NCBI GenBank assembly: GCA_002698705.1
Contig: NZZM01000029.1
Location: 1 to 37,672, forward strand
Direction of reading: 5' to 3'
Length of the DNA stretch: 37,672 nt
DNA from: Formosa sp.
GTDB taxonomy: Bacteria; Bacteroidota; Bacteroidia; Flavobacteriales; Flavobacteriaceae
Numbering within the stretch: position 1 is the first letter of the stretch; each line of letters begins with the position of its first letter. The position numbers were made by a program, and so were the translations under genes. This document shows, one piece after another, positions 12,581 through 14,623 of the stretch. The notes under the pieces are model-generated. The model was given only the letters and a program-made list of their open reading frames with translations. It was not told the origin of the DNA and ran no database searches.

Positions 12581-12781
12581 ATGGAACTACTTTTGATAAC
12601 ATTTTTACTTTTGGCATTTGGTGTTGCAGGTATCTCCATCAAAATATGGGGGAAAAAGGATGGGGAATTTGCAGGGACATGTGCAAGTCAAAATCCCATG
12701 CTAAATACAGAGAAGGAACCCTGTGGCTTTTGCGGCAAAAGCCCAGAGCAGTTTAAAGATTGTGATAATTCACTAAAGTAA
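12581..12781 (+). CDS. Small membrane-anchored Cys-rich protein
   Basis: A 66-residue protein with a single N-terminal hydrophobic segment (residues 2-20, LLLITFLLLAFGVAGISI). A soluble tail follows with four cysteines (C34, C48, C51, C61), including CGFCGK. I recognise this as a type seen in flavobacterial genomes, usually annotated only as a membrane or secreted protein. The cysteines could bind a metal or form disulfides, but nothing here decides between these. A good TATATTTG box and an ATG start make it a credible gene despite its size. It lies 79 bases before the sigma factor gene on the same strand. Confidence 0.75.
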   Translation: MELLLITFLLLAFGVAGISIKIWGKKDGEFAGTCASQNPMLNTEKEPCGFCGKSPEQFKDCDNSLK

Positions 12782-12860: not shown

Positions 12861-13412
12861 TTGAAAGTTAACGAAGCAATTCTAAAAGCCAAAGAAGATA
12901 ATCAAATGGCTTTCAATTTTTTATTAGAGACATTTTGGAACGACGTCTTTGGATTTATGCTCAAGCGAACGCATAATGAGATTGATGCAGAAGATATAAC
13001 CATTGAAGCCTTTTTTAAAGCTTTTGATAAAATCAATTCATTTAATTCAGAATTTAAGTTTAAAACTTGGTTAATTACCATTGCAAAAAATACACATTTA
13101 GATAGTTTAAGAAAGCGAAAAAAAAGACTAACAAATGAAACTAGTGAAGAAGACGAAAAACGTGTTTATTGGATAGTAGACGATGCCCCATCTGTTGAAG
13201 ACCGACTTATCAAAGAACAAAATCTAGCCCAACTACTCAAAGACATTAAAAAATTAAAACCACACCACCAAGATATCATTCAATTGCGCTTTTTCAAAGA
13301 ACTAAGCTACCTTGAAATTTCTCAAAAAACGGGCATTCCTATTAACAATGTAAAAGTTAAATTGCTGCGAGCAAAAAAAACACTTGCAACAATTATTAAG
13401 CACAAAAAATGA
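12861..13412 (+). CDS. RNA polymerase sigma factor, ECF/sigma-70 family
   Basis: A 183-residue sigma factor with only regions 2 and 4. Region 2 runs from about residue 15 to 85, with DAEDITIEAFFKAFDKINSF and FKTWLITIAKNTHLDSLRKRKKR. Region 4 runs from about 125 to 178, with LKPHHQDIIQLRFFKELSYLEISQKTGIPINNVKVKLLRAKK as the helix-turn-helix. The start is TTG at 12861; the next Met (residue 16) would cut into region 2. No anti-sigma gene is adjacent. Instead the stop overlaps the start of an Nramp-like transporter by 4 bases (ATGA). The regulon is unknown. Confidence 0.92.
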   Translation: MKVNEAILKAKEDNQMAFNFLLETFWNDVFGFMLKRTHNEIDAEDITIEAFFKAFDKINSFNSEFKFKTWLITIAKNTHLDSLRKRKKRLTNETSEEDEKRVYWIVDDAPSVEDRLIKEQNLAQLLKDIKKLKPHHQDIIQLRFFKELSYLEISQKTGIPINNVKVKLLRAKKTLATIIKHKK

Positions 13413-14623
13413 TAAAATTTTTACATAAATTAGGGCCTGGACTCTTGTTCGCTGGTGCAGCTATCGGAGTGTCTCATTTGGTGCAGTCTACAAAAGCAGG
13501 TTCAAATTTTGGCTTTGGCTTGTTGTGGGCGCTTCTACTTATCAATCTGATCAAATACCCATTTTTTCAATACGGCCCGCGCTATGCAAGCGCTACTGGA
13601 GAAAACTTGCTTGAGGGTTATAAAAAACTTGGAGAATGGACTCTAAGAATCTATGCCATTCTCACACTGACGACTATGTTTACCATACAAACAGCAGTAA
13701 CGATTGTGACAGCAGGAATTGCCTCATCACTTTTCGGAATTGAACTTAGCTCAGAGCTTTGGGCTGTGATTATTTTAGGTTTTTGTTTTCTTTTGCTATC
13801 AGTGGGTAAATACAATTTATTGGACAAAATGATGAAAGTAATTATTATTTTGCTTAGTATTTCAACCCTTTTGGCAGTTGGGATAGCATTTAACAATAGC
13901 AGCGGTGAAATCCCATGGACACAAGTTTTCCCAACATCAAATGTTGAAGTTATTTTTCTTATTGCCTTTATGGGTTGGATGCCAGCTCCTTTAGACGTGT
14001 CTATTTGGCATTCTTTGTGGGCAGTAGAAAAACAAAAAACAACAGATGTTTTCAATAAAAAATCGGCTCTATTAGATTTTAATATCGGATATTTTAGCAC
14101 TATAATTTTAGGTCTTTGCTTTTTATTTTTAGGGGGATTAGTGATGTATGGCAGCGGAAAATCATTTAGCGACAATGGTGGAGAATTTTCATTACAACTC
14201 ATTGATATGTACACTAAGAATCTAGGGGATTGGAGCTTTATAATTATTGGAGTCGCAGCATTTACTACCATGTTTAGCACTACACTCACAACCTTAGATG
14301 CATCACCAAGAGCAATGAACAAAACGATGGAACTTATTTTAGAAAAAAAACTTAAAAATGGTTACAACGCATGGTTGATTTTATTGATTATGGGGACTGT
14401 TATTATTTTCTTCTTCTTCCTTTCTGATATGGGCAGTTTGATAAAAATTGCCACAATCTTATCATTCCTCACCGCACCGTTTTATGCATTGATGAATTAT
14501 CTTTTGTTGTGTAGCAAGCATACTCCTAAAGTTTGGCAACCTTCCAAAAACATGCATATTTTATCTATTTTTGGAATTTTATTTTTAGTTGGATTTAACA
14601 TTTGGTATTTCACTATTTTATGA
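13409..14623 (+). CDS. Nramp-like divalent metal transporter homologue with altered metal-site motifs
   Basis: A 404-residue polytopic membrane protein, about 11 hydrophobic segments, homologous to the Nramp/MntH family along its length. The N-terminal GPGLLFAGAAIGVSHLVQST segment lines up without gaps with Nramp TM1 (GPGFLVS..YMDPGNWATD). The metal-binding DPGN reads GVSH here. The TM6 motif MPH is replaced by MPAPLDVSIWHS, which supplies an Asp instead. Nramp proteins take up Mn2+/Fe2+ with protons; with these changes substrate and coupling cannot be assumed. The gene is coupled by a 4-base overlap to the sigma factor. The 223-residue ORF on the opposite strand is a shadow. Confidence 0.85.
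   Translation: MIKFLHKLGPGLLFAGAAIGVSHLVQSTKAGSNFGFGLLWALLLINLIKYPFFQYGPRYASATGENLLEGYKKLGEWTLRIYAILTLTTMFTIQTAVTIVTAGIASSLFGIELSSELWAVIILGFCFLLLSVGKYNLLDKMMKVIIILLSISTLLAVGIAFNNSSGEIPWTQVFPTSNVEVIFLIAFMGWMPAPLDVSIWHSLWAVEKQKTTDVFNKKSALLDFNIGYFSTIILGLCFLFLGGLVMYGSGKSFSDNGGEFSLQLIDMYTKNLGDWSFIIIGVAAFTTMFSTTLTTLDASPRAMNKTMELILEKKLKNGYNAWLILLIMGTVIIFFFFLSDMGSLIKIATILSFLTAPFYALMNYLLLCSKHTPKVWQPSKNMHILSIFGILFLVGFNIWYFTIL

Follow-up and report, generated by a model that had tools for sequence, protein, structure and literature searches.

The Pfam family PF01566 comprises the Slc11 transporters together with an orphan outgroup and the Nramp-related Mg2+ transporters, or NRMTs (PMC9606685; PMC10606218). 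The metal sites of its described branches have been summarized by the signatures DxxN-AxxM, DxxN-AxxT and DxxG-TxxA/T (PMC8806188). In the orphan outgroup described by Cellier, TM1 has Gly for D and Thr for N, TM6 has Thr for A together with VY, and TM3 has YN (PMC10606218). Ray et al. (PMC12873925) described Nramp-related proteins that are paraphyletic and lack DPGN and MPH; most were said to be "entirely uncharacterised". The groups named there include an NRMT-like one and at least one more, "G-motif 3", to which MntG of B. subtilis belongs. This last protein, YcsG/MntG, has been reported as a Mn2+ importer, from an increase of cellular Mn2+ upon overexpression and from genetic evidence (PMC10448178). 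It cautions against taking loss of DPGN as loss of metal transport.

Nramp-related proteins lacking both motifs are already recognised, and the proteins described here, which we call GxSH after their TM1 motif, are a further variant among them. They may be one of the groups that Ray et al. (2026) called "G-motif" (PMC12873925). The window, by which we mean the whole 37,672-nucleotide stretch of Formosa sp. DNA that was analysed (contig NZZM01000029.1), contains one such gene, with the following features:

13409..14623, + strand: gene for a GxSH-type Nramp-related membrane protein of 404 aa (ORF, PF01566 match, purifying selection, AlphaFold2 model)
13466..13477, + strand: TM1 motif G20-V21-S22-H23, which replaces DPGN (register from MAFFT and hhalign; G, S and H present in all 96 members)
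13973..13996, + strand: TM6 motif G189-W-M-P-A-P-L-D196, which replaces GATVMPHN (alignments, family conservation, AlphaFold2 helix break at 191-196)
14297..14311, + strand: family-specific TM8 pair D297-x-x-x-R301 (100% in 96 members; also in the distant Skermanella relative)

The window gene is intact and encodes a PF01566 protein

The reading frame starts with ATG, and its product scored 65.2 bits against PF01566 (Nramp), above the Pfam gathering cut-off of 29.8; distant GxSH members scored 30-48 bits. The window protein also passed the NCBIfam model NF037982 (Nramp_1; 59.8 bits, cut-off 50) and fell far under the NCBIfam MntH models. A true MntH (196 bits) and a GPGT paralogue (115 bits) passed NF037982 too. 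This "equivalog" model makes no distinction between canonical MntH, GPGT, GxSH and further divergent PF01566 proteins. As a catch-all it is uninformative on substrate, and a protein is called "Nramp family divalent metal transporter" whatever its metal site may be. No second PF01566 gene was found in the source genome (a 1.77-Mb assembly of 83% completeness), and the window gene was without a match among phage families.

Comparison of the window gene with that of locus L003 gave a dN/dS of 0.08 at a dS of 0.64, and comparison with three 78%-identical orthologues, for which dS was near saturation, gave 0.09-0.10. The gene is intact and under purifying selection (dN/dS about 0.08-0.10), which rules out a pseudogene reading of this copy. 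A chance or frame artefact is ruled out as well, since the motif is invariant across several phyla.

The canonical ligands are replaced by a conserved set of residues

The alignment register was obtained with MAFFT (together with canonical, clade B, NRMT, NRAT and GPGT sequences) and with hhalign of family profiles. TM1 of the window protein reads GPGLLFAGAAIGVSHLVQST and TM6 reads GWMPAPLDVSIWHS. Both alignments placed GVSH gap-free over DPGN, with DraNramp D56, P57, G58 and N59 aligned to G20, V21, S22 and H23. Both also placed G189-W190-M191-P192-A193-P194-L195-D196 over the canonical G-A-T-V-M-P-H-N, with DraNramp A227, M230, P231, H232 and position 233 aligned to W190, A193, P194, L195 and D196. 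The canonical Slc11 signatures DxxN in TM1 and A/CxxM and MPH in TM6 were absent, the TM6 residues being W190-M-P-A193 and then A193-P-L195. In TM3, DraNramp E134 corresponds to T98 and the column of the proton-path acid D131 to T95, and an acid was absent among the commonest family residues listed for these two columns.

The first-pass annotation had described a full-length, non-decaying Nramp homologue without DPGN and MPH, aligned gap-free in TM1 with GVSH for DPGN. The intact frame and its low dN/dS, the PF01566 match and the lack of any canonical ligand in either alignment bear this out. Its reading of TM6 stood in part: MPH is indeed absent, but the M191-P192 of MPAPLD lies two residues upstream of the canonical MPH, so that the MPH column is occupied by A193-P-L195.

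Relatives collected from genome contigs and genome searches amounted to 98 distinct sequences; the roughly 100 related loci make up one family, and conservation was scored in 96 full-length members. All of these have G-x-S-H, where x is V, T, G or A, and G20, S22, H23, T28, K49, G189, W190, M191, P192, S202, W204, D297 and R301 were invariant (96/96). Position 196 was D in 81 members and E in 15, and S290-T291 of TM8 is conserved. The canonical residue was missing from the DPGN Asp, Met and His columns in all 96; the Met column holds Ala in many. The family signature can be written as G-x-S-H (TM1), G-W-M-P-x-x-x-[D/E] (TM6) and D297-x-x-x-R301 (TM8).

Canonical Nramp/MntH proteins (Slc11; clades A/C and B) have in common with GxSH the PF01566 domain, the Nramp fold, the TM1 GPG start and the TM6 helix break. 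GxSH proteins, however, lack DPGN, MPH and the TM3 Glu/Asp, show 13-18% identity over structural matches and have invariants of their own (H23, W190, D/E196, D297, R301). The GxxH and WxxA of GxSH differ both from the NRAT signature (DxxN and AxxT) and from that of NRMT (DxxG and TxxA/T); NRMTs resemble GxSH in the Nramp fold and in the loss of the Asn and Met ligands, but possess a TM1 Asp and a TM6 Thr that GxSH does not. The orphan outgroup substitutions match the GPGT group of this analysis and not GxSH, which has only D to G in common with them and otherwise H, W and A/L, with no Y/N. The GPGT group, which possibly includes B. subtilis YcsG/MntG, is the closest to GxSH by profile-profile comparison and likewise has Gly for the TM1 Asp, but carries Thr at the Asn column and TTVVPYN in TM6, where GxSH has His and WMPAPLD. 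In two genomes (loci L076 and L080) the GPGT gene abuts, or overlaps by 1 nt, an upstream gene for a similar lipoprotein-like protein of ~375 aa, and a functional link between this protein and the GPGT group is possible.

GxSH proteins form a separate clade with a predicted LeuT/Nramp fold

In a first tree, the 34 GxSH rows formed one clade with a support of 100/100, separate from the canonical (100/100), NRMT (100/99) and GPGT (100/100) clades; the EleNRMT group was thus a clade of its own with GxSH outside it. A second tree included more members, leaving out the very divergent PF01566 paralogues L079, L081 and L084 because long branches attract. There the separation from the other groups persisted (GPGT clade, 99/97), and the only extra row inside the GxSH group was a very divergent Skermanella protein, itself with G-x-S-H. 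The branch joining GxSH to the rest exceeded 5 changes per site. A sister position of GxSH to canonical Nramps was not rejected in an AU test (p 0.455). By hhalign, the nearest groups were GPGT (E 2e-19), NRMT (1e-12), clade B (3e-10) and canonical Nramps (1e-9). The idea that the window protein belongs to a clade with changed ion-site residues, for which a phylogeny against MntH, NRMT and NRAT groups had been proposed as a check, is borne out: GxSH is a well-defined family apart from MntH, clade B, NRMT, NRAT and GPGT.

An AlphaFold2 model built from a 13-row alignment (pLDDT 77, pTM 0.79) predicted a LeuT/Nramp fold for the window protein, with the TM6 helix broken at residues 191-196; its confidence over TM1 was only about 60-65. 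The best PDB match by Foldseek was DraNramp (TM-score 0.78), followed by EleNRMT (0.76) and a model of YcsG (0.72); B. fragilis Nramp scored 0.71-0.75, and amino-acid transporters such as AdiC ranked lower (up to 0.69). A profile search of the PDB sequences with the same 13-row alignment returned 0 matches. The side chains that line the GxSH site are inferred from the alignment.

Distribution of the family

GxSH genes are widely distributed, are mostly single-copy and are sometimes the sole PF01566 gene of a genome. The survey took about one genome per genus. A GxSH gene was present in 88 of the 121 Flavobacteriaceae genomes, in 52/297 Bacteroidota genomes and in 10/145 genomes of the phylum of a Lentisphaeraceae-titled relative (L013). 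Many Flavobacteriaceae genomes have a GPGT-like paralogue in addition to GxSH. Pseudomonadota members, with ~36% identity and all with GGSH, were found on large replicons of Photobacterium and Pseudoalteromonas and in a Neisseria gonorrhoeae record. The Skermanella protein is more distant, and has GASH, E at position 196 and the D297/R301 pair.

Three members depart from the usual gene structure. In genome G325 the GxSH gene (L128:4625-14522) is interrupted by ~9 kb. Judged by eye, this stretch holds a transposase-like ORF pair, a SusC/SusD-like pair, a TetR-like regulator and a phosphodiesterase/sulfatase-like gene, and it may be a mobile insertion for nutrient uptake. Genome G345 holds a decayed copy (C49:14365-15440) with several in-frame stops, which adjoins an intact sigma gene. 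At L099:326-2605, the open frame of a GxSH protein extends to 759 aa, almost double the normal size, and may represent a fusion.

Possible substrates of GxSH proteins

By sequence, GxSH proteins retain the Nramp-type TM pattern, and the canonical Mn2+/Fe2+ ligands and TM3 proton-path acids are all gone. The conserved replacement set consists of S22 and H23 in TM1, W190 and D/E196 in TM6 and D297/R301 in TM8. Since the ligand set is replaced, the substrate would not be bound in the canonical transition-metal mode, and we consider that GxSH proteins are probably LeuT-fold secondary transporters whose substrate is bound in a manner other than that for Mn2+/Fe2+. Transport would occur by rocking-bundle alternating access, with the substrate held where TM1 and TM6 are broken, through the His-Ser and Trp-Asp/Glu positions rather than through D, N and M, and H23 and D/E196 would be the best candidate pair for cation or proton handling. 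No transport assay for any GxSH member was found in the literature.

The first-pass annotation suggested a different ion, but a non-metallic substrate is just as conceivable. It is possible that GxSH proteins do not transport metal and are Nramp-fold carriers of a small organic solute or a monovalent ion, possibly Na+- or H+-coupled through H23, D/E196 and S290-T291 of TM8. Their type of substrate might in that case have been kept from, or returned to, the wider APC superfamily, a suggestion that we make tentatively.

We regard it as rather doubtful that GxSH proteins import a divalent metal (Mn2+, Fe2+ or Zn2+) through ligands at new positions, with H23 and D/E196, perhaps together with backbone carbonyls, substituting for D, N and M. 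An invariant His and an acidic residue do stand at the two helix breaks, but the Met column is without a Met/Cys soft ligand. The Mn2+ uptake by YcsG/MntG offers a precedent among Nramp-related proteins outside the canonical clades. None of the 52 GxSH-bearing genomes among the 297 of Bacteroidota had a strong canonical MntH match, as if either gene stood in for the other (judged by the best PF01566 E-value, which was never <1e-100 in these 52). However, the three Flavobacteriaceae genomes with a canonical MntH all have GxSH as well (3/3), so that this exclusion follows lineage at least in part. Further against this reading, no metal-regulated riboswitch scored above the Rfam gathering scores near the gene in the window or at 13 other loci (14 members in all), and no metal-related neighbour was recognised in recurrent GxSH gene clusters.

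A carrier of Mg2+ in the manner of the NRMTs is improbable: although these are another Nramp-related branch without DPGN/MPH, and have Ala at the Met column as do many GxSH proteins, they have a TM1 Asp (DxxG) and a Thr at the Ala column where GxSH has Gly and Trp. In addition, the M-box riboswitch was absent from the window and from the 13 other loci, and GxSH and NRMT are separate clades.

The residues on which metal transport by Nramp depends are all missing from this large family, which a catch-all model labels as divalent metal transporters. With the GxSH substrate identified, many annotations would be corrected, and it would become possible to examine whether the Nramp metal site originated from another chemistry or degenerated into one; H23, D/E196, D297 and R301 form a small group of residues for this question.

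Linkage to an ECF sigma factor gene is confined to one lineage

The start of the transporter gene overlaps by 4 nt the gene upstream:

12861..13412, + strand: ECF sigma factor gene, a linked neighbour (Pfam Sigma70_r2/r4; 4-nt overlap with the transporter gene start)

Downstream, lipA follows the transporter gene after a 45-nt gap. A 66-aa membrane-anchored Cys-rich ORF (GTCASQNPMLN...CGFCGK) lies at positions 12581-12781 of the window, between murB and the sigma gene, and is conserved in many Flavobacteriaceae loci, mostly upstream of the sigma/transporter pair.

We tallied the linkage of sigma and GxSH genes by coordinates in the 121 Flavobacteriaceae genomes, in which group 1 has a close orthologue of the window gene and group 2 a second GxSH type. 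The sigma orthologue was directly upstream (within 200 nt) in 64 of the 66 group 1 genomes, the remaining two being without it at the threshold, and was unlinked, elsewhere in the genome, in all 22 of group 2; a further 28 genomes had the sigma gene without any GxSH gene. GxSH members outside the window's lineage had other neighbours, which vary between families, and a conserved metabolic neighbour that might give a clue to substrate was sought and none was found. As the sigma gene is often without GxSH and the neighbours differ, the linkage represents a gene order that is old within one lineage, and the family as a whole does not need it for function. Within the window's lineage, the transporter and sigma genes probably share a transcript and are coupled in translation, a linkage that would concern expression or gene order rather than an obligate partnership.

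A role as sensor or membrane anti-sigma factor for this ECF sigma factor, raised in the first-pass annotation, fared poorly and is very improbable: the gene overlap and the arrangement kept in group 1 speak for it, but the sigma gene was without an adjacent GxSH gene in 50/114 Flavobacteriaceae genomes and so is no obligate partner, most of the family outside the one lineage lies away from it, and the protein has only ~8 residues ahead of the TM1 GPG, with no soluble or other extra domain.

The gonococcal "mntH" product

The sole PF01566-like frame in the gonococcal record that we searched (NZ_CP119142.1; L178:5965-7218) encodes a 417-aa GxSH protein with GGSH and GWMPAPIE. A 417-aa Nramp-domain core gene of the gonococcus has been named "mntH", and 12 SNPs in it (11 of them amino-acid changes) showed the strongest association with the gonococcal genetic island, a finding that was interpreted through Mn/Fe transport, assumed from the domain name (PMC10272882). 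The GxSH protein is very probably this "mntH" product (WP_003698816.1), an identity drawn from equal length and uniqueness rather than from a sequence comparison. If they are the same, the protein behind the Mn/Fe interpretation in PMC10272882 lacks every canonical metal ligand, and if GxSH proteins do not carry metal, the "mntH" of pathogenic Neisseria is misnamed. An older study reported a putative NRAMP gene, NGO1455, with expression affected by FNR, which may be the gonococcal GxSH gene. The record NZ_CP119142.1 is labelled as a plasmid, yet at 2.17 Mb looks like a chromosome.
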